A program made the position numbers and the translations under genes. From contig NZ_DYHZ01000004.1 of assembly GCF_020723905.1 (NCBI RefSeq), positions 179,199-243,198 on the forward strand: DNA of 64,000 bases. The letters are read 5' to 3'. The notes under the pieces were generated by a model. The model saw only the letters and a list, made by a program, of their open reading frames with translations. It made no database searches and was not told the origin of the DNA. The DNA is from Anaerolinea thermophila (GTDB lineage: Bacteria > Chloroflexota > Anaerolineae > Anaerolineales > Anaerolineaceae). How positions within the stretch are numbered: position 1 is the stretch's first letter; every line of letters starts with the position of its first letter. Below are positions 2,519 to 61,710 of the stretch, in pieces.

Positions 2519-3702
2519 CGGCGCACCTCTTCGGTCATGGCTTTGCCATAGATCTGCATCAACCCCTCCAGATGATGGCTGGCGGTGAAGCGCTCTTCCA
2601 CCAGGCGCCTGCCCGCCTGCCCCATGTGATGTGCACCGGCGGGGTCGCCAAGCACATCCCGGATGCGCTCCGCCAGTTCAGCGGCACTGCCGGGGGTGAA
2701 CAGGTGTCCCTGCACCCCATCCTGAACCAGATACGGCAGTCCCCCCAGACGCGCGGCAATCACCGGCACCCCGCACACCATGGCTTCCAGCGCGGCAAGC
2801 GAAAACGGCTCGTACACCGTAGACGGAATGACCACCAGCGCCGCCCCGCACAGGAACTCCCAGCGCCGGTCGGGAGAAATTTTGCCCGTCAGTTCCACAT
2901 TTGGCAATCCGCGTGCCATGCGCTCCAGCGCCTCCCGCTGAGGTCCATCCCCGGCAAGACGGAAAGGCACATCCGGCAGGCGTCTTGCCGCTTCGATGAG
3001 CAGGTGCGCTCCCTTTTCCTCAGACAGACGCCCCAGAAACGCCACGTATCCGTGCACGGGCGGGGCGGGGCGCGCTTCTGGCAGAGGATCGGGAATGAAA
3101 TTGCCCAGCACGTCCAGTTGATCCGCGCGGAACAGGCGGCTTTCCACCATTTTCTGCGCGGTGAAAGGCGTCAGCGCAATGGCTCGGGTAATGCCCGCAA
3201 ACGTTCCCCGGCGGCGGTGCACCCCGATGGAGAGCGCATACAGCGCGCTGGCGGTCACGCTGTTGCGGTAACAGCGCCAGCGCACCGCGTGCAGCGTATT
3301 GCCCCATTTACAGCGCTCGCAGATAGCCCCGCGGGTGTAGAACAATCCATTCGGGCAGAGAAAACGCACGTTGTGCAGCGTCTGTACCACAGGCACGCCC
3401 TCCTCTGCCAGCACGCGGTACACCGCCGGAGAAATCAGCGGGAAAACGTTGTGAACATGGGCAACTTCGGGTCGGGTATTGCGAATCAAACGGCGCACCT
3501 CGCGTACCGCGCGCGGAGCATGCACCGCGCTCAGCCCCAGCGCCAGTTTCTTCAAAGGCGCGGCACGGCGCAGTTCCTCGTTGGTGCGGCGGTAGAAGAT
3601 GACCTCATGCCCTGCCCGCTGAAGCAGACTGGCTTCGGCTTCGAACGCCAGCGTTTCGCCGCCCAGTTGCTGATAATCGTTGTGAATCAGCAAGACCCTC
3701 AT
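2515..3702 (-). CDS. Family 4 glycosyltransferase
   Basis: A 395-residue GT-B fold enzyme. The N-terminal acceptor domain begins MRVLLIHNDYQQLGGE and contains 'HVHNVFPLISPAVY'. The C-terminal donor domain has 'AFLGRLSEEKGAHLLIEA' and 'VIPSTVYEPFSLAALEAM', the E-x7-E-type nucleotide-sugar site of GT4 enzymes. A Cys-rich insert near residues 115-140 (CPNGLFYTRGAICERCKWG) is common in a GT4 subgroup. It overlaps its neighbours by ATGA junctions on both sides, between two antiporter-like membrane genes, which is an unexpected place for a glycosyltransferase. It probably transfers a sugar to an envelope lipid or polysaccharide at the cytoplasmic face of the membrane. Confidence 0.85.
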   Translation of the reverse strand: MRVLLIHNDYQQLGGETLAFEAEASLLQRAGHEVIFYRRTNEELRRAAPLKKLALGLSAVHAPRAVREVRRLIRNTRPEVAHVHNVFPLISPAVYRVLAEEGVPVVQTLHNVRFLCPNGLFYTRGAICERCKWGNTLHAVRWRCYRNSVTASALYALSIGVHRRRGTFAGITRAIALTPFTAQKMVESRLFRADQLDVLGNFIPDPLPEARPAPPVHGYVAFLGRLSEEKGAHLLIEAARRLPDVPFRLAGDGPQREALERMARGLPNVELTGKISPDRRWEFLCGAALVVIPSTVYEPFSLAALEAMVCGVPVIAARLGGLPYLVQDGVQGHLFTPGSAAELAERIRDVLGDPAGAHHMGQAGRRLVEERFTASHHLEGLMQIYGKAMTEEVRR

Positions 3703-8380: not shown

Positions 8381-9286
8381 TCAGCCCGGCTTTCCCTGCG
8401 CCAGCCGATCTGCCAGCGCGCGGATTTCCTCCCGCAGGGCAATCTTCTCCAGCCAGTGGGCGGGAATGCCCGCCTCCCCATAAAAAGCACCTGCAAATTG
8501 CCCGCACACTGCCGCCGTGGTGTCGGCATCCTCGCCCAGATGGGCGGCGCGCAGGACGGCATCGGCAAAACTCTGGCTGTGCCAGAAGCACCACAGCGCC
8601 GCCTCCAGCGTATGCACCACATACCCCGAACTGCGAATTTTCGCCTCCGGTCTGTCCATGTACTTGCCGCGCGCAATGGCGGTTATGCGTGGACTGCCGC
8701 GGAAGGTCTCGGAATCGCCCAGCAGGACCTGTTCTTTCGGTTGACCAGCCAGCGCCCGCACCAGCATGCGCGCCATCAAACGGCAGGCATCCACGCACTC
8801 CGCCGCGCCGTGCGTGGTTCGCGAACTCTCGGCGCTGTAGTGCTCAGCCGCATCGAGATCGGGGTAATAAAACAGGGGCACCGGCGCCAGGCGCATGATA
8901 CAGCCATTCCCGGCAGAATACGGGTCGGTCGAACCGGCAAACGGCTCTCCCGTCAGCCGGTAGCGTTCCAGCGCCGCCGCCACCGTCCCGCCAATGTCGA
9001 AACAGTACCCCGTACTGCTCCAGTACCCCTCATCCCGCCACCGGCAGTAGCGTTCCATCTGATCGCGAGCATCGAAACCGTTGCACTCCACCAGGCTGGA
9101 CGCCAGACACAGCGCCATTGAGGTGTCATCCGTCCACTGCCCGGGTTTCAGGTAAAACACTCCCCCGCCCACGATATCGGTCAGAGGTTCAAAACTGCCG
9201 CGCGCCCGAAATTCGAGCGTCGTCCCCAGGGCATCGCCCACCGCCAGTCCCAGCAGGCAACCGCGAAAACGGTTCAACAAATCCAT
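8381..9286 (-). CDS. ADP-ribosylglycohydrolase (DraG family)
   Basis: A 301-residue all-helical cytoplasmic enzyme predicted to remove ADP-ribose from proteins or small molecules. The family signatures are present: 'GCLLGLAVGDALGTTLE' at residues 9-25, the Mg ligands T52-D53-D54 in 'WTDDTSMALCLA', and the C-terminal 'GEDADTTAAVCGQFAGA' that supplies the second metal site. An ATG with AGGAGG 7 bases upstream sets the start. It lies 11 bases after the multihaem cytochrome gene and is probably co-transcribed with it. No nitrogenase or DraT gene is visible, so a nitrogenase role is unlikely. Confidence 0.85.
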   Translation of the reverse strand: MDLLNRFRGCLLGLAVGDALGTTLEFRARGSFEPLTDIVGGGVFYLKPGQWTDDTSMALCLASSLVECNGFDARDQMERYCRWRDEGYWSSTGYCFDIGGTVAAALERYRLTGEPFAGSTDPYSAGNGCIMRLAPVPLFYYPDLDAAEHYSAESSRTTHGAAECVDACRLMARMLVRALAGQPKEQVLLGDSETFRGSPRITAIARGKYMDRPEAKIRSSGYVVHTLEAALWCFWHSQSFADAVLRAAHLGEDADTTAAVCGQFAGAFYGEAGIPAHWLEKIALREEIRALADRLAQGKPG

Positions 9287-9297
9287 ACAGCCACCTC

Positions 9298-10962
9298 CTA
9301 CCGGGTCTGCGCGCTTGCCGAGGCAACCATGACCGGCACATTCCCCGTCTGCGCCAGCATGCCGCCAAAGGTCTGGGCTTCTGCGCTTTGCGTGTCGAGC
9401 ACATTCTTTGCCCAGCGGTAACTCACCGACTGGTAAAGCAGTTCCGCCTCAATGGTAAAAGGCGCGCCAGCCGGGTTCACGGGAATGCGGTACTGCACGG
9501 TATCGCCCCCGCCGGTAAAATCGGGGTCGTTCAGGGCATCGCCAACCACTGCCGAAACACGGGGCGGCTGGGACTTGTTAAAGCCGCGCGGTAGCAGTCG
9601 GTTATCCTTGATGTACGAGGCGGCAAGCAACTGGTAGGTGGTCACCTTACCGGTTTCGGTCTGCATCACCGGCTCGTAAATCTGCACCTGATCTGCCGCG
9701 GTGATGAGGGTGTAATGCGGTTCATAAGTTTCGGGGTTTTCATCGCTGGCATTGCCGTAAATCTTCCCGTCGCGCTCGTACCCGCCCGACTCAAACACCA
9801 CCCTGCCGGACGCATCCTTCACGGTGACATGAAGCCAGGCCCGCCGCGAGGGGAATGAAGTGGGGAACTTATGTCCGGTGAGCAGGTCCACGCGCACGGC
9901 AAACTCCAGGTTATCGCCCTCCTGCCGGGGTGAGGTGATGGCAAGAGTGGCAGTACGGGTTTGCAGGTACTCGGTGGTCCGGGCAATGTGAGCATCCAGC
10001 CCTGTGCCGCCGGGGTTGCGCACGCCCTCCACCTTGCCGTCCTTCAGCAGGGTGAGCAGGAAGACATTGCCGCCGGTAAAGGTGTGGCGGTAAAAGGGCT
10101 GATAGGTATTCTGCGGGGTGATGTTGGAAACAGGCGCAGAGCCTGCCGCGGCGGGCATATGGCAGTCCTGACAGGACGATTGCTGCGCAAAGTCCGAAGC
10201 CAGCCACTCGCTGAAGGGCGTCTGCTCGTAAAAGAGGGCATCCTCTCCGCTCAACGAGCCATCGGCGGTGATGTAGTTCAGGTACAGTTCGTGGCAGGTG
10301 GCGCACAACTGCGACTGGCGCACATGCTCGCTCTGCACGGCAAGGTATCCTGAAGCGGCTTGCATGGTCTGGCGGTTCTGCTCGCTGATGGGAAGCGCCC
10401 CGTACAGCAGACGCTCTCCCATTGCAGTGACCGTGTCAATTGCCATATTACCGCTGTGGCGCAGTTCACCGGCAGGCGGCTGAGGAATCTGGTGGCAGAC
10501 CGTGCAGGACACGCCATCCAGCGCCAGTTTTCCCAGCACATGTCCCTCCGCCAGCACCCCCTCCTCGCCCAGAAGCGCGGTAGATTCACCCTGCGCCTCC
10601 TGAGTGACGCGCGCCATGGGCGTGTGGCAGGTGGCGCACTTGGACTGGATGGCATCGGCGTACTGCGGCGCGTTGAGCAGTTCCATGCGCACGCTGGCGC
10701 GGAAATACGGGTCGAGGGCGGCGTTGCCCATCACGCTGGTCTGCCACTCAGGGACAATGGAAACGTCCGCACCGGTGCTGTCTTTCAAGCCCTGATGACA
10801 GGCGGCGCAGTTACCGGACGGCTTGAAAAAGGCTTCTCCGGGCGCGGTGGCAGGAGCAGGAGTCGGGGTGGCAGGCGCACTGCAGGCGCTCAACAGGAAC
10901 AGCACGATGAGGGGCAAACCCCACAAAACGACACTTCGTCTGGAAATCACTGAAGGTGCCAT
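9298..10962 (-). CDS. Five-haem c-type cytochrome lipoprotein
   Basis: A 554-residue exported lipoprotein. The signal sequence ends in a lipobox (LLSAC, Cys27), followed by an Ala-Pro-Thr linker. Five CxxCH haem sites follow: CAACH, CATCH, CTVCH, CATCH and CQDCH, all in the first ~300 residues. The C-terminal ~250 residues have no haem site and look beta-rich ('FAVRVDLLTGHKFPTSFPSRRAWLHVTV'). This layout resembles cytochrome c-554-like and multihaem electron-transfer proteins at the outer face of the membrane. The start is the ATG with AGGGAGA 8 bases before it; an ATG 18 bases earlier lacks a site. It is first in a two-gene operon. Confidence 0.8.
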   Translation of the reverse strand: MAPSVISRRSVVLWGLPLIVLFLLSACSAPATPTPAPATAPGEAFFKPSGNCAACHQGLKDSTGADVSIVPEWQTSVMGNAALDPYFRASVRMELLNAPQYADAIQSKCATCHTPMARVTQEAQGESTALLGEEGVLAEGHVLGKLALDGVSCTVCHQIPQPPAGELRHSGNMAIDTVTAMGERLLYGALPISEQNRQTMQAASGYLAVQSEHVRQSQLCATCHELYLNYITADGSLSGEDALFYEQTPFSEWLASDFAQQSSCQDCHMPAAAGSAPVSNITPQNTYQPFYRHTFTGGNVFLLTLLKDGKVEGVRNPGGTGLDAHIARTTEYLQTRTATLAITSPRQEGDNLEFAVRVDLLTGHKFPTSFPSRRAWLHVTVKDASGRVVFESGGYERDGKIYGNASDENPETYEPHYTLITAADQVQIYEPVMQTETGKVTTYQLLAASYIKDNRLLPRGFNKSQPPRVSAVVGDALNDPDFTGGGDTVQYRIPVNPAGAPFTIEAELLYQSVSYRWAKNVLDTQSAEAQTFGGMLAQTGNVPVMVASASAQTR

Positions 10963-11114
10963 GGCATTCTCCCTGTACATGTATTGTAGCGCGAGTCGGA
11001 AAGAGGGAGAGCCTCAGGAATGAAAAAAATTCATTCTTGACACAACTGATTAAATACTGTATTATTCAATTGTAAATACAAAAATTTTCGAATTTTTCAC
11101 AAAAAAGGCTAATT

Positions 11115-12449
11115 ATGTTAATAGAATTTAGCGTTTCCAATTTTCGATCTTTTTCTCAACCGGTTATCCTGAGCCTGCTTGCCACTCCTTTGAAAGAAAA
11201 AGATTCTCGATTAAACACGGACAATCTGTTCGAGGTTAATCGTCTTAAACTCCTGCGCAGCGCGGCAATTTACGGCGCCAACGCAAGTGGAAAGAGCAAT
11301 CTGGTGAAAGCAATCGGATTTATGCGCCGGTTTGTTCTCGATTCGGCGACAGAATTTCAATCCGGAGAAAAGATCCCGGTTGATCGCTTTCGACTGAGCA
11401 GGGAAGCACGCCAGAAACCTGCCTTCTTTCAGATCATTTTTTCTCTAAACGGTAAACGTTATCGCTACGGTTTTGAACTGGATGAAGAACAAGTCCACGG
11501 CGAATGGCTATACCAGACCGTACAGCGTGAAAGTCTTTTATTTATCCGGGAAAAGGATCAATACGAAGTTTCTACCTCCTTCAGGCGGGAAGCCCCGGTA
11601 AAACTTCAGGAAATGACCCGCACAAATGCCCTGTTTCTCTCCGTGATGGCGCAGTTCAACAGTCCGCGGGCAGTTGAATTGCTGAACTGGTTCCGCAAGA
11701 GCCTTCGGGTAGTTTCAGGGCTTAAGGATGAGTTCTACGCGCCCTATACAATGGAACAAATGGAAAAGGATGAAACCTTCCGCCGGTTTGCCCGGGAAAT
11801 GGTGCGCATGGCTGATACCGGTATAACCGATCTATCAGTTAAAAGTGAAGTGCTGGATAGTGCTTCATTTCCAGCCGAACTACGCAAACTCATTCAGGAA
11901 ATTGCGGAAAAAGAAGGCAAAACACCTGATGAGTTATCCATTCAAACCGTGGAAACAAGGCACCCCGTTTATGAAGGGGAAACATTTGTCGGGAGCGAGA
12001 ACTTCGATATTGACGAAGAATCAGACGGAACCCAGAAGTTTTTCTTTTTACTGGGACCGCTTTTCTATACATTAAAGAAAGGCAATGTGCTGGTCATTGA
12101 TGAACTGGATGCTCGCCTGCACCCCAGCCTCACCCGCGAAATTGTACGCATGTTCAACTCTCCCGAAACCAATCCTTACAACGCGCAGTTAATTTTCGCC
12201 ACACACGACGCCGGTCTGCTGGGCGAATGTCTGTTACGACGAGATCAGGTGTGGTTTACTCAGAAGAATCGCTTTGGTGCCTCAGAACTGTATTCACTGG
12301 CTGAGATGAAAGAGCGTAAAGATGCTTCTTACCTGAAAAATTACCTTGCCGGACGTTATGGAGGTATTCCCTTGCTGGGAGGATTACGCCCATTTGTCGA
12401 GGAGATGCTGAAGCATGACACGAACACCGAAGCCGAGCGGTCGCAATAA
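11115..12449 (+). CDS. RloA/AbiL-like AAA ATPase (defence)
   Basis: A 444-residue ABC/SMC-type ATPase of the AAA_21 group. It begins with 'LIEFSVSNFRSF', typical of OLD/RloA/RecF-like ATPases. Walker A is GANASGKSN (residues 54-62). Walker B is VLVIDELDARLHP with D329/E330, followed by FATHD with H364. The 3' end overlaps the RloB-type gene by 35 bases, so the two are one unit. In other bacteria such ATPase plus RloB pairs occur in R-M loci and as the AbiL abortive-infection system; here the pair stands alone. An AT-rich upstream region and lower G+C than neighbouring genes suggest horizontal acquisition. No clear Shine-Dalgarno is seen. Confidence 0.8.
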   Translation: MLIEFSVSNFRSFSQPVILSLLATPLKEKDSRLNTDNLFEVNRLKLLRSAAIYGANASGKSNLVKAIGFMRRFVLDSATEFQSGEKIPVDRFRLSREARQKPAFFQIIFSLNGKRYRYGFELDEEQVHGEWLYQTVQRESLLFIREKDQYEVSTSFRREAPVKLQEMTRTNALFLSVMAQFNSPRAVELLNWFRKSLRVVSGLKDEFYAPYTMEQMEKDETFRRFAREMVRMADTGITDLSVKSEVLDSASFPAELRKLIQEIAEKEGKTPDELSIQTVETRHPVYEGETFVGSENFDIDEESDGTQKFFFLLGPLFYTLKKGNVLVIDELDARLHPSLTREIVRMFNSPETNPYNAQLIFATHDAGLLGECLLRRDQVWFTQKNRFGASELYSLAEMKERKDASYLKNYLAGRYGGIPLLGGLRPFVEEMLKHDTNTEAERSQ

Positions 12450-55515: not shown

Positions 55516-56922
55516 ATGGCAAAAGTGCAAACCCGTTATGTGTGTCAGAACTGCGGGCGGGTTGCGGCGCGCGCCATGGGGCGCTGTCCGCAGTGTGGGG
55601 CGTGGAACAGCATGGTCGAAGAGATCATCGCCCCCTCCGCCGCGCCCGCCAGAAGCACCAGCGCCTCCTCCTCGCCGGGCGGGACTGCCTCTCAACCGCG
55701 CCGGCTGAATGAGATTGAGGGCGATCATGAAGCCCGCCTGCCCGTGCCCATTGGCGAGTTTGCCCGCGTGCTGGGCGGCGGCGTTGTCCCCGGCTCGATC
55801 ACGCTGGTGGGCGGCGACCCCGGCATTGGTAAATCGACCCTGATGCTTCAGGTGGCGCTGGAAATGGCGCAGGAACGCCGCGTGCTGTACATCTCCGGAG
55901 AAGAGTCGGAGCGGCAGGTGAAGATGCGCGCCCTGCGCCTGCTCAACCACCGCCCCGTACCCGAAAACCTCTTCCTGCTCACCGAAACCAGCCTGGATGC
56001 CATGCTGGAGCATGTGCGCGGGCTGAATCCCGCGGTGCTGGTGGTGGATTCCATTCAAACGGTCTATTTGCCCGCGCTGGAGTCGCCGGCGGGATCGGTC
56101 TCTCAGGTGCGCGAGTGCGCCAGCCGTCTGCGCGACCTTGCCAAATCGGCGGGAATTTCCATTTTTGTCATCGGGCATGTCACCAAAGAGGGCATCATTG
56201 CCGGTCCGCGTGTGCTGGAGCACATTGTGGATACGGTGCTGTATCTGGAGGGCGACCGCTACCAGTCTTACCGGCTGCTGCGCTCGGTGAAGAACCGCTT
56301 TGGTGCCACCTCGGAAGTGGGGGTGTTCGAGATGCTCGAACGCGGCATGAGCGAGGTGCTCAACCCCTCCGAAGCCTTCCTGGCCGAGCGCCTGGTGAAC
56401 GTGCCCGGCTCTGCCATTGCCGTGACCATGGAGGGGACGCGCCCCCTGCTGGTGGAGATTCAGGGGCTGACCAGCCCCAGCCCGCTGACCCTGCCGCGCC
56501 GCACCGCTAACGGCATTGACGGCAACCGCCTTCTGCTCATCACCGCCGTGCTCACCCGCCGTATGGGCTTGCGCCTTGCCGAGCAGGATGTCTTCGTCAA
56601 CGTGATCGGGGGGCTGCGCATCAGCGAGCCTGCCGCTGACCTTGCGGTGGCGGCGGCGATTGCCTCTTCCATGAAGGACGTGCCGGTGCGCGCCAGCGCG
56701 GTGCTGATCGGCGAGGTGGGGCTTTCGGGTGAACTGCGCATGCCCTCTCAGATGAGCGCGCGCCTGCGCGAAGCCGCCCGCCTGGGTTTTGATACCGCGG
56801 TGGTGCCGCGGCGCATCCGCCGCGGGGGCGAAGCCTACCCCGAAGCCATGCAGGTGCTGGAGGCGCGCTCTCTGCGCGAAGCCCTGACCATGGCGCTGGT
56901 GGAAGCCCCTGCGCGGGAGTAG
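55516..56922 (+). CDS. radA: DNA repair protein RadA
   Basis: A 468-residue RecA-like branch-migration protein. It has an N-terminal C4 zinc finger (CQNCG...CPQCG, residues ~9-26) and a RecA core with Walker A 'GGDPGIGKST' near residue 98. The RadA-specific 'KNRFGATSEVGVFEM' motif lies near residue 257, and a Lon-protease-like C-terminal domain spans ~300-450. ATG 55516 was chosen over two nearby ATGs because TATAAT ends 7 bases earlier. It is followed by a long inverted repeat and then the CRISPR array. Confidence 0.95.
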   Translation: MAKVQTRYVCQNCGRVAARAMGRCPQCGAWNSMVEEIIAPSAAPARSTSASSSPGGTASQPRRLNEIEGDHEARLPVPIGEFARVLGGGVVPGSITLVGGDPGIGKSTLMLQVALEMAQERRVLYISGEESERQVKMRALRLLNHRPVPENLFLLTETSLDAMLEHVRGLNPAVLVVDSIQTVYLPALESPAGSVSQVRECASRLRDLAKSAGISIFVIGHVTKEGIIAGPRVLEHIVDTVLYLEGDRYQSYRLLRSVKNRFGATSEVGVFEMLERGMSEVLNPSEAFLAERLVNVPGSAIAVTMEGTRPLLVEIQGLTSPSPLTLPRRTANGIDGNRLLLITAVLTRRMGLRLAEQDVFVNVIGGLRISEPAADLAVAAAIASSMKDVPVRASAVLIGEVGLSGELRMPSQMSARLREAARLGFDTAVVPRRIRRGGEAYPEAMQVLEARSLREALTMALVEAPARE

Positions 56923-56940
56923 AGCGGGCGGGAGAAGTAA

Positions 56941-57002
56941 TTTGCGTACCCCCCCTCTATTTCAGGGCATTTCGGGGCATTTTTTCAGGGGGGGTACGCA
57001 AA
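56941..57002. repeat. 16-bp perfect inverted repeat with a 30-bp loop
   Basis: TTTGCGTACCCCCCCT (56941-56956) and AGGGGGGGTACGCAAA (56987-57002) are exact reverse complements. The 30-bp loop holds two short direct repeats (GGGCATTTC / GGGCATTTT). It lies between radA and the CRISPR leader. It may be the radA terminator, although no T-run follows on the plus strand; a small mobile element end pair or a structured RNA are alternatives. Confidence 0.75.
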
Positions 57003-57059
57003 AATCGGGCAGGTGGAAGACGAAACCACTCTGCCGGAGAGAAAGACATGGAAAAAGAC

Positions 57060-57088
57060 TTGATTTTTGAAAAAAGATGTGCTATTCT
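57060..57088 (+). promoter_or_regulatory. Putative CRISPR leader promoter
   Basis: TTGATT (57060-57065), a 17-base spacer, and TATTCT (57083-57088) read into the array, whose first repeat starts 60 bases later. This agrees with a leader at the left end. Confidence 0.5.
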
Positions 57089-57148
57089 GGAAACAGTTCA
57101 CCCTGCGGGGGCACTTCTACCGGCAGGCAGTGGATGGGCAAAAGTACA

Positions 57149-58533
57149 GTCTGAATCAAAGAAGACCCGAAAGGGTATTAAGACACAAGCAAGACCTTTT
57201 GTGGAGTATAAAGCAGTCACCAGTCTGAATCAAAGAAGACCCGAAAGGGTATTAAGACCGAGTACGGGTGCGGATGCAAGGGGTGCGAAGTGGTATACGT
57301 CTGAATCAAAGAAGACCCGAAAGGGTATTAAGACTTTTTCAGCCTTGTTTCCCTGTCTGCCTTCTCTTCAGTCTGAATCAAAGAAGACCCGAAAGGGTAT
57401 TAAGACATTCTATGAGGGTGGCCGGCTCACCCTCGAGTTCGATTGTCTGAATCAAAGAAGACCCGAAAGGGTATTAAGACGTTAGAGGGCAGGAACTGTA
57501 CCCTGCCCACCACTTTGAGAGTCTGAATCAAAGAAGACCCGAAAGGGTATTAAGACAGCACAATGATCAGTGACGACCAAAGTGCGGCAGCGATGAGTCT
57601 GAATCAAAGAAGACCCGAAAGGGTATTAAGACCCATAGTTATCCTCCAATAGAGACAAACCATGAAGGTTTAGTCTGAATCAAAGAAGACCCGAAAGGGT
57701 ATTAAGACAGGCTGAAGAGGGAAAGAGGGGGGGGAAAAGGTCTTAAGTCTGAATCAAAGAAGACCCGAAAGGGTATTAAGACTCACTGGCTTGTTTTTAT
57801 CCGATACTTTCTTGGGCTGTTTGTCTGAATCAAAGAAGACCCGAAAGGGTATTAAGACTCTAGCATAAATGCAACGGTTGCATTTGCAGGTGAAACGTCT
57901 GAATCAAAGAAGACCCGAAAGGGTATTAAGACTCTAGCATAAATGCAACGGTTGCATTTGCAGGTGAAACGTCTGAATCAAAGAAGACCCGAAAGGGTAT
58001 TAAGACATCTGCGAGCCATGTCTGTCGCGTCCATGCCTTTCAAGATTGTCTGAATCAAAGAAGACCCGAAAGGGTATTAAGACCAATACAGGATGCTCAA
58101 TGCCCGTGGAGGTAAGGTTGAAGAGTCTGAATCAAAGAAGACCCGAAAGGGTATTAAGACTGCGCCCTGAATGGGGCGCCCGCGCCACTTTCTCTCGTGG
58201 GTCTGAATCAAAGAAGACCCGAAAGGGTATTAAGACGCCCCTCCCGTCTGGAAGGGGCACAGCCACTGGCAGGTGCGTCTGAATCAAAGAAGACCCGAAA
58301 GGGTATTAAGACACGTCTACGGCCTTTTGGCCGTACGATATTTCCAACGCTAAGTCTGAATCAAAGAAGACCCGAAAGGGTATTAAGACAGAACCGCGGA
58401 CAAATCATACCGACCGTTTATCTTAAGTGTCTGAATCAAAGAAGACCCGAAAGGGTATTAAGACTCAGTTTTCATTTCTCCCTCCGTTGTATTTTCCGTC
58501 TGAATCAAAGAAGACCCGAAAGGGTATTAAGAC
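57149..58533 (+). CRISPR. CRISPR array: 19 perfect 36-bp repeats, 18 spacers
   Basis: The repeat begins GTCTGAATCAAAGAAGACCC and ends GAAAGGGTATTAAGAC; ACCC-GAAA-GGGT can form a small stem-loop, and GTCT/AGAC pair at the ends. Repeats start at 57149, 57223, 57299, 57371, 57445, 57521, 57597, 57673, 57747, 57823, 57897, 57971, 58048, 58125, 58201, 58277, 58354, 58429 and 58498. Spacers are 33-41 bp, mostly 38-41. Spacers 10 and 11 (57859-57896, 57933-57970) are identical. No cas gene is in the window, so the type is not assigned. Orientation is set by the degenerate copy at 59551 and the left-hand promoter. Two further repeats follow beyond gene-sized segments. Confidence 0.97.
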
Positions 58534-58841
58534 TCAACGAGATTGTGGATGCTCTTTCGGGATTTCTGTTCTACGCAACTCAGAGGGGGATTGACCAGAA
58601 CGTGGCTCTGTACGTGGATAATGTTCTGGTTTTCGGAGACCCATACGACGAAGAGATGTACAACGAGTTGTTTGTCAAAGGGTTGCTGAAAGGCAAACTG
58701 AAGAACCTGTTTGACGAATATATTGGTCTCCTAAAACTCAGCCAGAAACTGAAAAAGGCTGGCGTGGATATCTTCAATGCTGAATTTTGCTCAAAAGCAC
58801 TGGATGATTACGTCTGGGAGATTACCTTTCAGGGAGGTTAA
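58534..58841 (+). pseudogene. C-terminal gene fragment abutting a CRISPR repeat
   Basis: An open frame of about 102 codons that begins exactly at the end of repeat 19 and ends with TAA at 58841. It is rich in Leu, Lys, Asp and aromatic residues ('VALYVDNVLVFGDPYDEEMY', 'LLKGKLKNLFDEYIGLLKL', 'ALDDYVWEITFQGG') and looks like a genuine soluble protein. No start codon with a ribosome binding site exists inside it (GTG 58545 is possible but unsupported), so the 5' part of the gene has probably been lost. No family was recognised. Confidence 0.5.
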
Positions 58842-58942
58842 AGGCTGGGAGAGCGAAAATTGTTTTGCGTTGTTTGGGCACAGCCCTGTTCGATTTCAAC
58901 CCCCTGACAACAGCGGGAATTTCTAATTACTGAGGAGGTTGT

Positions 58943-59161
58943 ATGTTGAAGAAAGCCGTTTGTGTGTTCTGCAAGAAAGAAATGATGACGGACGCCTGGG
59001 AATATGCCGATGAACCCGTCGAGATTATCTGCGATGACTGCGACACCCGCAAAGTCATTACCGTCAAATGCCCTGTGTGCGGTAAGACCCACCAGACCCT
59101 GTGGTTCGAGGGCACGGAAACAGAAATCTGTGATGAGTGTGAAAAGAACCTGATTGCGTAA
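58943..59161 (+). CDS. Small zinc-ribbon protein
   Basis: A 72-residue protein with GAGGAGGTTGT before the ATG. Four CxxC pairs (CVFC 7-10, CDDC 30-33, CPVC 43-46, CDEC 63-66) make two tandem zinc ribbons. The rest is acidic ('DAWEYADEPVEII'). Tandem ribbons of this size occur as phage or plasmid proteins and as transcription or RNA-associated small proteins. It lies between two CRISPR repeats, about 400 bp after repeat 19, so its promoter may be the array transcript. Confidence 0.75.
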   Translation: MLKKAVCVFCKKEMMTDAWEYADEPVEIICDDCDTRKVITVKCPVCGKTHQTLWFEGTETEICDECEKNLIA

Positions 59162-59166
59162 GGCAG

Positions 59167-59186
59167 GGGAGGGCGCCAGCCCTCCC
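59167..59186. terminator. Hairpin after the zinc-ribbon gene
   Basis: A perfect 8-bp stem GGGAGGGC / GCCCTCCC with a GCCA loop. No T-run follows, so termination is uncertain. Confidence 0.45.
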
Positions 59187-59202
59187 TTAGAAAGGAGTTG
59201 CC

Positions 59203-59238
59203 ATGAAACTATTCGTGCAGAAAGGGAAGGTCGTCTGA
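59203..59238 (+). pseudogene. Small ORF cut by CRISPR repeat 20
   Basis: AAAGGAG and an ATG at 59203 start a frame (MKLFVQKGKV) that meets the repeat after 10 codons and stops at the TGA inside it. If the 36-bp repeat is removed, the frame continues VSTFEAPRGD to a TAG at 59301. That would make a 20-codon ORF. Confidence 0.35.
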
Positions 59239-59268
59239 ATCAAAGAAGACCCGAAAGGGTATTAAGAC
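59233..59268 (+). repeat. CRISPR repeat 20 (isolated, perfect)
   Basis: An exact 36-bp copy of the array repeat, 699 bp after repeat 19, in the same orientation. Confidence 0.95.
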
Positions 59269-59550
59269 GTATCAACGTTCGAAGCACCGCGAGGTGACTA
59301 GAAGCACTAAACGGTTACAATCAATTGAGGAGGTTATATGAGCGACGAAGAACCTGTTGTTATTCGCGAATCGGAACTTAACAGCGACGAGACCCAAGAC
59401 CGGAACGCCGACTGGATTAAGTACGCGAACCCGAAATCACAGGAGGCGGATTTGCGGGCGTCAATCTGGGCGCAGTATCATCATTTGGGCATCCCGTGTC
59501 CTTTCGAGGACGAGTGGGTAGAGGATCAAGAACCGCCCAAACGCAAGTAA
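59269..59550 (+). other. 282-bp gene-bearing segment between CRISPR repeats 20 and 21
   Basis: This interval contains one complete small ORF with its own ribosome binding site. The ORF's TAA stop (59548-59550) directly abuts repeat 21. Confidence 0.8.
59338..59550 (+). CDS. Small acidic protein of unknown function
   Basis: A 70-residue, strongly acidic protein with GAGGAGGTTAT before the ATG. It has 'EEPVVIRESELNSDETQDRNA', a hydrophobic/aromatic central part ('DLRASIWAQYHHLGIPCPF') and a basic end (PPKRK). Small acidic proteins of this size include anti-CRISPRs and other phage inhibitors, but there is no sequence evidence for that here. Its stop codon touches CRISPR repeat 21. Confidence 0.65.
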   Translation: MSDEEPVVIRESELNSDETQDRNADWIKYANPKSQEADLRASIWAQYHHLGIPCPFEDEWVEDQEPPKRK

Positions 59551-59586
59551 GTCTGAATCAAAGAAGACCCGAAAGGGGATTAAGAC
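59551..59586 (+). repeat. CRISPR repeat 21 (terminal, one mismatch)
   Basis: A 36-bp copy of the array repeat with one T-to-G change at position 28 (GGGGAT for GGGTAT). Degenerate last repeats mark the trailer end of arrays, so this supports all 21 repeats having once been one array. Confidence 0.9.
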
Positions 59587-59606
59587 CGAAAGGCGGCAGA
59601 GGTTCC

Positions 59607-59634
59607 CCTCTCCCTGCACTTGCGCAGGGAGAGG
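59607..59634 (+). terminator. Terminator after the last CRISPR repeat
   Basis: An 11-bp stem CCTCTCCCTGC / GCAGGGAGAGG with a 6-base loop, followed by CTGTTTTGGG; it would end the array and cassette transcript. Confidence 0.8.
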
Positions 59635-59706
59635 CTGTTTTGGGTCACCCGCTCGGACAAAATTCAGATATACTTAAACCATCCACACCCTTGAGGGGGA
59701 AGCCCT

Positions 59707-60372
59707 ATGCCTCGAACGATTGTGCTTCTGTTGCTGGTTTTATCCCTGACCGCCGCGGGACTGGGGGCCTGTCAGTCCACGCCCACCCCCGCTCCCACCA
59801 TGGACCCTGCCGTGCTGACGCAGACCGCCGCCGCCGCCCGGACGCAGGAGCGCGGCACGCAGGAAGCCCTGCAGACCTCGCAGGCGCTTCTGAACATCAC
59901 CCCCACCATCACCCCCACGCAGACGACCGCACCTACCCGCACGGCAACCCCCACCGTCACCCCCACCATCACCCTGGTGCCCACCCGCACGGCAACGCCC
60001 CTGCCCAGCGCCACCATCACCAACACTCCCTCGCCCTACACCTGCCGGCTGGTCTCGCAGGTGCCGCGCGACGGCTCGACCATCAAGCCCAACACCACCT
60101 TCACCGTCACCTGGACGGTGCAGAACGTGGGCAAGGCGGTCTGGGAGGATATTGGCATTGACCTGGTGCAGTTGGGCGGCGATAAAATCGCCGTGCAGAC
60201 CATTTACGACCTGCCGCGCACGGTCAAGCCCGGCGAGACGGTGGATCTGCAGGTGGAGTTGAAAGCCCCCGAAACCTCCGGCTATTACCGCACCGACTGG
60301 AAACTGGCCATTGTGGATCAGGGGTTCACCTTCTGCCCGCTGTACGTGGATTTCTGGGTGAGCGACCGCTAG
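59707..60372 (+). CDS. Lipoprotein with NBR1-type Ig-like domain
   Basis: A 221-residue lipoprotein: lipobox GLGAC (Cys ~22), a long Thr/Pro linker (~25-108), then an Ig-like domain resembling the 'next to BRCA1' domain: 'IKPNTTFTVTWTVQNVGKAVWED', 'TVKPGETVDLQVELKAPETSGYYRTDWKL', 'PLYVDFWV'. Such domains are common in exported Chloroflexota proteins and probably bind other surface proteins. A terminator separates it from the CRISPR region. Confidence 0.8.
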   Translation: MPRTIVLLLLVLSLTAAGLGACQSTPTPAPTMDPAVLTQTAAAARTQERGTQEALQTSQALLNITPTITPTQTTAPTRTATPTVTPTITLVPTRTATPLPSATITNTPSPYTCRLVSQVPRDGSTIKPNTTFTVTWTVQNVGKAVWEDIGIDLVQLGGDKIAVQTIYDLPRTVKPGETVDLQVELKAPETSGYYRTDWKLAIVDQGFTFCPLYVDFWVSDR

Positions 60373-60422: not shown

Positions 60423-60812
60423 ATGCCGGGAAGAGGAACTGCCCCGCGAAGTGGGAACGAACTGAAACAACGAGTTGTGGATCTTGCCCGCGAACTGGGT
60501 CTGGAAGTCAAGACAGAAGTCAGGGCGGCAAGGAGGCTCTGGGGACAAAAAAGACATATTGATGTCGTTCTTACCGAGCCTAAAACGGGAAAGCGTCTGG
60601 GGATCGAGTGTAAATTCCAGTCCACTCCGGGAACGGCGGAAGAAAAAGTGCCTTCCACCATTCAGGATATTGAGCACTGGCCCATTCCCGGAATTGTCGT
60701 GATTGACGGGGAAGGTTTTTCGGAAAATATGAGCGGTTACTTGATGTCAACCGGAAAAGTGGTCTGGTTTGAAGATCTGGAAGACTGGTTGCGCCTTTAT
60801 TTTGGACTGTGA
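60423..60812 (+). CDS. PD-(D/E)XK nuclease, probable restriction enzyme
   Basis: A 129-residue protein. A helical start '[23 protein letters not shown]' leads to the nuclease core '[22 protein letters not shown]': Asp46 as motif D, then the E-x-K at 'IECK'. The C-terminal part continues the fold ('[12 protein letters not shown]', '[13 protein letters not shown]'). The size and core resemble the small PD-(D/E)XK proteins paired with Dam-type methylases. It lies 1 base before the methylase gene, so it is the probable R subunit of a type II system. Confidence 0.75.
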
Positions 60813-60813
60813 T

Positions 60814-61710
60814 ATGGGAAACCCGGTTCCACGACCTTTTCTGAAATGGGCTGGCGGAAAGACACAACTGGCAGATGCAATTCTTGAACGCATGCCGGTT
60901 TCTTTCAACACCTATCACGAGCCTTTTGTGGGGAGTGGAGCCATATTCTTTCGCCTTTACCGCGATCGCAAAATCCGGCATGCGATTCTCTCTGATATTA
61001 ACGCCGAACTGATAGATACCTACCTTGCCATCCGTGACCATGTGCTGGAAGTTATCTCCATCCTGGAGCAGTACCCTCACGATAAAGCCTTTTATTATGA
61101 GATTCGCGAAAAAGATCCGTGGACAATGAGTTTACCGGAGCGGGCTGCTCGCATGATTTACCTGAATAAGACCGGATACAACGGCCTGTACCGCGTCAAT
61201 CGTCAGGGAAAATTTAATGTGCCTTTTGGCAAATACAAATCTCCAAAATATCTGGACAGGGAAAACTTAATCGCCGTTTCGCAAGCCTTGCAGGATGTAG
61301 ATCTTCTATGTGTTTCTTTTGAGACGGTTGTTGAACGGGCAAAGATGGGAGACTGGGTATATTTTGATCCTCCCTACGTGCCGCTTTCTCAGACAGCGAA
61401 TTTCACTTCCTACCAGCCAAACGGTTTTGGCGTACAAGAACAGGCAAAGTTAAGGGATGTTTGTGTTGAATTAACTCGTAACGGGGTCTTTGTGACCCTC
61501 TCAAACTCAGACACCCGGTTGATTCGCGATCTCTATTTCCCTGAATACTTTTTAACGGATGAGGTCTTAGCCAATCGTGCCATCAACTGCAATGGTGCAA
61601 AGCGAGGCAAGATTACCGAACTGTTAATTACAAATTATCCTGTTGAAAGAGCCATTCAACTGCAACTGCTGGAGACGAGAGGAACGTACCTGATTCATTC
61701 TGCCTCTTAA
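60814..61710 (+). CDS. Dam-family DNA adenine methyltransferase
   Basis: A 298-residue D12-class N6-adenine methylase. It begins with the AdoMet motif '[16 protein letters not shown]' (residues ~7-22), has '[13 protein letters not shown]' near residue 33, and the catalytic DPPY in '[20 protein letters not shown]' near residue 185. The usual target is GATC; that is inferred from family. It starts at an ATG 1 base after the nuclease stop with no clear Shine-Dalgarno, suggesting translational coupling. Unlike chromosomal dam it is paired with a nuclease gene. Confidence 0.9.

Follow-up and report, generated by a model that had tools for sequence, protein, structure and literature searches.

CRISPR arrays are generally held to store short spacers only. 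Virus-borne mini-CRISPR arrays reportedly carry short spacers too, not genes; repeats common to virus and host would be expected to allow exchange between them. Two other systems come close to the locus described here: CreTA modules, which have ectopic CRISPR repeats outside ordinary arrays and use RNAs, and integron gene cassettes, which are small genes in one orientation with a repeat-type boundary. Solitary repeat units (RNA anti-CRISPRs, Racrs), repeat copies in phages that are often found near anti-CRISPR genes and are expressed as small RNAs inhibiting Cas proteins, are described in the main text of PMC10651486, where the term "type III" does not occur. Conservation of the trailer end of arrays and acquisition at the leader end are treated in parts of PMC11472070. 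The accessible portion of PMC5576922 has no bearing on gene-bearing array intervals. A search of the literature, most subscription journals being outside its scope, found no earlier account of cassettes that code for proteins and lie between the repeats of an array.

The window (the whole stretch of DNA that was analysed, 64 kb) contains a CRISPR array of 21 copies of a 36-bp repeat at positions 57149-59586 of the plus strand. The features of this region are as follows.

56935-57148, plus strand: leader, with a hairpin from 56944 (GCGTACCCCCC...GGGGGGTACGC), 3' of a gene with its stop at 56922 that we take to be RadA-like
57149-58533, plus strand: canonical array, with the 36-bp repeats R1-R19 (all perfect) alternating with 18 spacers, each 33-41 bp long
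58534-59232, plus strand: insert 1 (interval 19), 699 bp, from R19 to R20, GC 0.48
58534-58841, plus strand: 3' part of an orphan ORF (about 101 aa) whose frame is already open at the repeat boundary
58943-59161, plus strand: double zinc-ribbon ORF, 72 aa, SD TGAGGAGGTT, Pfam zinc-ribbon matches below the cut-off
59203-59232, plus strand: start of an ORF (first 30 nt) with a strong SD, cut by R20
59233-59268, plus strand: R20, perfect repeat separating the two inserts
59269-59550, plus strand: insert 2 (interval 20), 282 bp, from R20 to R21, GC 0.51
59338-59550, plus strand: acidic ORF, 70 aa, net charge -9, SD TGAGGAGGTT, its TAA abutting R21
59551-59586, plus strand: R21, terminal repeat
59607-59634, plus strand: terminator-like hairpin with a perfect 11-bp stem, directly 3' of the array

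Repeats R1-R20 are identical, and R21 differs from them by one mismatch (GGGTATT to GGGGATT). The intervals do not form a single narrow length class, as 18 of the 20 measure 33-41 bp and the others 699 and 282 bp. The first-pass annotation had given 19 canonical repeats followed by these two segments, and had set the cassettes inside the array, before a degenerate terminal repeat; both points are confirmed, the inserts being flush with the repeats. It had counted two further perfect repeats, which is true of R20 but not of R21. The two complete small ORFs with strong ribosome binding sites, the stop codon directly at the last repeat and the ORF fragment beginning where a repeat ends were all found as it had described them. 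The third ORF start, at 59203, is absent from that annotation.

The locus differs from each of the systems above. Unlike in integrons, the boundary of the small genes is a CRISPR repeat. Unlike in CreTA modules, protein genes lie between the repeats of an array. The repeats do not stand singly, as in the Racrs of the main text of PMC10651486, but in line with a chromosomal 21-repeat array, and they bound cassettes.

The repeat has 37 matches in the genome, 16 of them on contig C5 beside a type III-A cas operon (csm1 to csm5, a TIGR02221 protein, cas6, cas1 and cas2). Thus the array of the window is a second, cas-less array away from the operon. Its leader and first repeat are identical at 245 of 253 bases to those of the cas-adjacent array. 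Direct repeats, a leader, spacers unique but for one, and a matching cas operon in the genome make it a type III-A (Csm) array, unusual in its two gene-bearing intervals. Chance is excluded as the source of the repeats. At 57823-57970, two neighbouring repeat-spacer units are identical, an internal duplication of the array by which one spacer is doubled. The hairpin of the leader is not a genome-wide repeat, its exact pattern being present at two places only, the leaders of the window and of C5. Leaders with a long GC hairpin shortly after a gene stop were seen at 56935-57148, at 10962-11175 of the C5 region (L032) and 5' of the first repeat of L234. Such leaders are found both next to cas2 and, in two species, at a second array, as if leader and array had been copied as a unit.

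The C5 array also has a degenerate terminal repeat with low-GC DNA beyond it. Right after this repeat (L032, 12320-12770) lies an apparent frame-broken remnant of a small zinc-ribbon gene with the SD string GAAAGGAGTT, which is also present in insert 1. The remnant is weakly similar to the zinc ribbon of the window (P 0.018 by shuffling), and the low-GC stretch may be a further captured cassette, one that lacks a closing repeat. One spacer of the C5 array (12153-12208) is only 20 bp long, the rest being 36-41 bp. Elsewhere in the genome (L088, contig C10), an array of a different repeat with at least 111 copies lies beside a second cas1. Just past the array of the window, at 60423-61710, a gene for a PD-(D/E)XK nuclease adjoins one for a D12-class adenine methyltransferase; they are likely to form a restriction-modification pair.

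ORFs of at least 50 aa were listed over 46-64 kb of the window. The SD string TGAGGAGGTT occurs just twice in the 64 kb, both strands counted together, once in each insert, which suggests that both inserts come from one source. Their GC content (0.489) is close to that of the pooled short spacers of both arrays (0.493) and below that of the upstream host DNA (0.597); of 281 stretches of this host DNA, each 981 bp long, 18 have a GC content of 0.49 or less. Thus the inserts apparently are foreign, with a base composition like that of spacers and unlike that of the host. No match was found between the insert sequences and the spacers of both arrays. Joining the two inserts across R20 gives a frame of 20 codons only.

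The insert proteins have no close relatives in IMG/VR or in phage and plasmid records. The best match of the zinc ribbon in IMG/VR is a weak one, to a contig (L017, 34%, E 3e-5 in that scan) which has many small ORFs and lacks the repeat of the window. Among 147 genomes of the family the zinc ribbon matches four, its own genome and three with weak matches inside long frames; among 400 genomes of the order it matches 15, the 14 besides its own genome weakly (E 8.5e-4 or worse). The truncated ORF of about 101 aa has no relative in IMG/VR, in phage and plasmid records or in the 400 genomes, and the acidic protein has no family match in Pfam, PHROGs or PADLOC. Predicted structures had a mean pLDDT of 64.0 for the 70-aa protein (two sequences) and 51.7 for the zinc ribbon alone, both too low to be of use.

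A clear homologue of the acidic gene was found in a sister species of the same genus (locus L181 of genome G004), whose RadA-like protein is 76% identical. The last interval of the L181 array is 196 bp long and encodes the protein MSKTVNG...EEQEPPEELQQE; its TAA touches the degenerate terminal repeat, as in the window. The two proteins align over ADWxxYAxPK and QEPP, with a Smith-Waterman score of 64, none of 20,000 shuffles scoring above 61, and a BLAST E-value of 4e-5. Counted by eye, eight codons of the 11 identical residues (ADW-YA-PK, QEPP) differ at the third position and three are the same. These differences therefore point to selection on the protein, in the host or in an element. As the two species have clearly different repeats, common descent from one ancestral array would need a joint change of the repeats. 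No further clear members were found in the 147 family genomes, GTDB contigs, IMG/VR or phages: at E 0.5, 22 of the 147 genomes have a match, the best beyond the window and L181 being 0.026, and a weak match in G144 was rejected by eye as unrelated. The same genes in relatives lacking CRISPR repeats, which the first-pass annotation had named as contrary to its reading, were not seen; the sole clear homologue of the acidic gene itself lies inside an array.

One could assume that the inserts arose by illegitimate insertion into ordinary spacers or by decay of the array, the repeats otherwise being old neighbours. Such events do occur, as one array among the relatives surveyed below has a transposase-like insertion and several contain decayed repeats. 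However, no leftover spacer is discernible at the edges of the inserts of the window. In agreement with the first-pass annotation, no inverted repeats were found at these edges, and neither a match to a transposase family nor a transposase-like ORF was found in the inserts. The long intervals have no regularly spaced degenerate repeats: the best local score for a decayed repeat is 16 in each insert, and the 95th percentiles of shuffles are 21 and 20. Moreover, two serial inserts are flush with repeats, and the same joint of stop codon and repeat is seen in G004. We consider this origin very unlikely.

Cas1 matches are present in 97 of 400 genomes of the order, and the survey of arrays drew on part of their loci. 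It covered 122 loci, nearly all around cas1, including the window, the C5 region and L207 (chosen for its repeat), and yielded 74 arrays with 2940 gaps, 16 of them longer than 70 bp. Four of the 16 bear ORFs: the two of the window, one in L165 and one in L181. The others were rejected as parallel cases: three are runs of N (L089, L114, L125), seven contain decayed repeats (L115, three gaps of L122, L130, L176, L195), one holds a transposase-like insertion (L173) and one cas genes between two arrays (L168). No plain oversized spacers are among these 12, the three runs of N not being judgeable. The ORF of L173 (11919-13521), presumably of IS3 type, is flanked by perfect repeats within a type III-like array. 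In L168 (8488-11087), an ORF that we take to be reverse-transcriptase-like and cas1-cas2-like genes stand between two arrays of near-identical repeat.

A scan for weaker repeats, controlled with reversed and shuffled repeats, gave a second cassette in L165, with 9 mismatches where the controls have no fewer than 15. It also gave three degenerate copies 3' of the array in L141, whose mismatches number 9, 10 and 11 (at least 14 in the controls). At the level of the class, csm5 is present in 76 of 396 genomes. Twenty csm5 regions were examined and six contain arrays; one of these, L268, has a trailer interval of 566 bp with a 117-aa ORF and perfect repeats on both sides. L281 was rejected, its repeats being blurred by many small indels. 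Thus gene-bearing, repeat-bounded inserts at the trailer, i.e. the side of the array away from cas1 (or csm5), were found in five arrays of five separate assemblies: the window, L181, L165, L141 and L268. L141 is kept with reservations, as there are 9-11 mismatches in its far repeats, a direct repeat particular to the first gap flanks that gap, and no convincing ORF is present in the second. In L165 an RNase HI gene is cut at profile position 59 and its remnant is frame-shifted. The main ORF, chosen by eye, is in sense with the array in all eight inserts holding one (two each in the window, L165 and L141, one each in L181 and L268). The eight insert events are not all independent, since they are confined to five arrays. 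Isolated weak copies of the repeat were also seen 2.6-8.7 kb from the arrays of L096, L125 and L201.

An artefact of assembly at the CRISPR repeats is extremely improbable. Repeats of 36 bases can mislead assemblers, and the genome is in 13 contigs; on the other hand, the same architecture recurs in the five assemblies, with the same gene joint in G004.

The inserts were also compared between types of repeat. Among uncut arrays (at least 300 bp on both sides) with repeats of the GGG(C/T)ATTAAGAC group, four of 11 have gene inserts at the trailer (the 11 are the window, L032, L141, L142, L147, L155, L165, L168, L172, L173 and L181). Among the 17 uncut arrays with other repeats (12 of type I-C and five others) there are none. 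A one-sided Fisher test, done by hand, gives about 0.016, and 0.04 without the window (3/10 vs 0/17). In L089, L112, L142 and L161 the flanks fall short of the length of the longest insert, and a run of N is present in L089 as well, so the absence of inserts there carries little weight. The grouping of repeats includes manual corrections for L096 and L131; grouping by the ending of the repeat was rejected, as type I-C repeats then fell into the type III group. No cassette was found in the second array of G004 or at the end of the G001 array, both with repeats of the same group. The type III-like arrays of L142, L159, L174 and L207 end near contig edges, so their trailers are poorly judgeable; by eye, transposase-like sequence is present at L159, L174 and L207. 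In L172, small ORFs with strong SDs follow position 8983, between the degenerate end of the array and a cas1-like gene.

One possibility is that Cas1-Cas2 integrated gene-length fragments in place of prespacers of about 38 bp and duplicated the repeat, the events being early or the repeats downstream being lost later. We know of no process other than Cas1-Cas2 integration that leaves a duplicated repeat directly at the edge of inserted DNA. It would account for perfect repeats that lie flush with gene fragments cut at random, as with the 5'-truncated ORF and the cut ORF start of the window and the RNase HI gene of L165, and for the equal GC content of inserts and spacers. However, Cas1-Cas2 measures length. 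Not one plain oversized spacer is among the 12 gaps over 70 bp other than the trailer ORF gaps (2940 gaps in all; three runs of N not judgeable), and gene inserts occur in 0 of 12 uncut I-C arrays, some with short flanks. Gene-bearing gaps were seen at trailer ends only, save those of L173 and L168, the three N-filled gaps not being judgeable; this placement argues against random oversized capture. Nor would the same gene and boundary in two species, or the sense orientation in eight of eight inserts, be expected. Capture of this kind is somewhat unlikely.

Exchange between the array and mobile elements, suggested by the first-pass annotation as recombination between repeats, is supported in part: it fits the foreign-like GC content, the recurrence of the inserts and the viral remnants described below. 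In three relatives the radA-like gene is followed by another gene than here, so that no exact empty site could be identified. Neither a source element of the inserts nor any mobile element with both the repeat and the genes was found in IMG/VR or in phage and plasmid records. The repeat of the window has no match in IMG/VR with a 27-mer or with a 20-base core. A pattern search of genome contigs, possibly leaving out records of the genome itself, was also without a match, and phages and plasmids gave only weak matches, with E of 1 or more.

The pattern ATGCCCNNNAGGGCATTAAGAC, however, occurs once each in two IMG/VR stretches, L283 and L284, on two contigs of one metagenome. They carry solitary, partial remnants of a hairpin plus handle, 1-5 bp from the stops of small genes. 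The remnant of L284 is in sense, 5 bp past the TGA of a 63-aa ORF and 2 bp past an adjoining TAA. L283 has one remnant at 3614-3635, where the stop of a 111-aa ORF is 2 bp away, and a second GGGCATTAAGAC site at 2742-2753, at a distance of 1 bp from that of a 145-aa ORF; both are antisense to their genes. When 68 repeats are fitted to L283 at full length without gaps, the best has 10 mismatches, equal to the control with reversed repeats; with gaps allowed, one L283 site aligns to the G004 repeat over its length. L283 and L284 have few Pfam or PHROG matches, one being a recombination-directionality-like protein in L284, so their viral nature is taken from their membership in IMG/VR and from this protein. 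They resemble the Racrs of the main text of PMC10651486 and differ in sequence from the repeats of the window.

Judged from sequence, the trailer of a cas-less second type III-A array may have taken up pieces of a mobile element's small-gene region by recombination at repeats. We regard this as a real possibility, if short of probable, and favour it because of the placement at the trailer, the serial inserts, their uniform orientation, the shared gene boundary and the solitary viral repeats. Firstly, elements infecting these bacteria would carry copies of host CRISPR repeats next to the stops of small genes. Secondly, these copies would recombine with repeats at the old end of an array. The outcome would be gene cassettes bounded by repeats, several in a row, and read with the array. 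Finally, the cassettes would be part of the array transcript, from which Cas6 could cut them out at R19, R20 and R21. Since R20 is perfect and the inserts are shorter than any element, the donor would need at least two near-perfect repeats, or later trimming. Against exchange are the partial state of the L283 and L284 remnants, the antisense position of both L283 remnants, and the seven of 11 uncut arrays of the group that have no cassette.

The first-pass annotation had also suggested an integron-like accumulation of genes driven by the array promoter. This fits the uniform sense orientation and the hairpin after R21, although such hairpins are no commoner than in shuffles: the consensus scan of 56900-59800 found one terminator-like site, after R21, while shuffles have 4.3 on average, and the hairpin is thus to be read as a consensus match. 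Promoter-like sites in the same interval are at the level of chance (3 vs 2.6 in shuffles).

Whatever their origin, the small proteins may have been kept as products of leader-expressed mRNAs cut by Cas6, for example as regulators or inhibitors of type III systems. All are in sense and have strong SDs, the consensus scan has no terminator-like site before the end of R21, Cas6 is present in the genome, and G004 has the acidic ORF conserved in the corresponding place, eight of 11 identical residues having codons that differ at the third position. However, the truncated ORFs of insert 1 and the frame-shifted RNase HI remnant of L165 look like junk, the acidic gene is common to two species only among the 147 family genomes, and any selection may have taken place while the gene was part of the mobile element. 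By the sequence evidence, such co-option is quite unlikely as the explanation of the locus; it is a functional layer that exchange or Cas1-Cas2 capture could each feed. The small orphan ORFs suggest themselves as candidate inhibitors of type III systems.

A broader, rather unlikely idea is that, in this group of bacteria, small genes of mobile elements land in type III arrays and are expressed from there, with repeats as the boundaries of the cassettes and Cas6 freeing the small mRNAs from the precursor that also gives rise to crRNAs. If true, this would mean array-coupled expression of small proteins, some of them possibly CRISPR inhibitors or regulators. Repeat-bounded gene cassettes that recur at the trailer would mean that CRISPR repeats are also places where mobile elements and arrays recombine, and that protein genes can be carried, and perhaps expressed, by arrays. 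The window, L181, L165, L141 and L268, together with the solitary viral repeats, make this directly testable.
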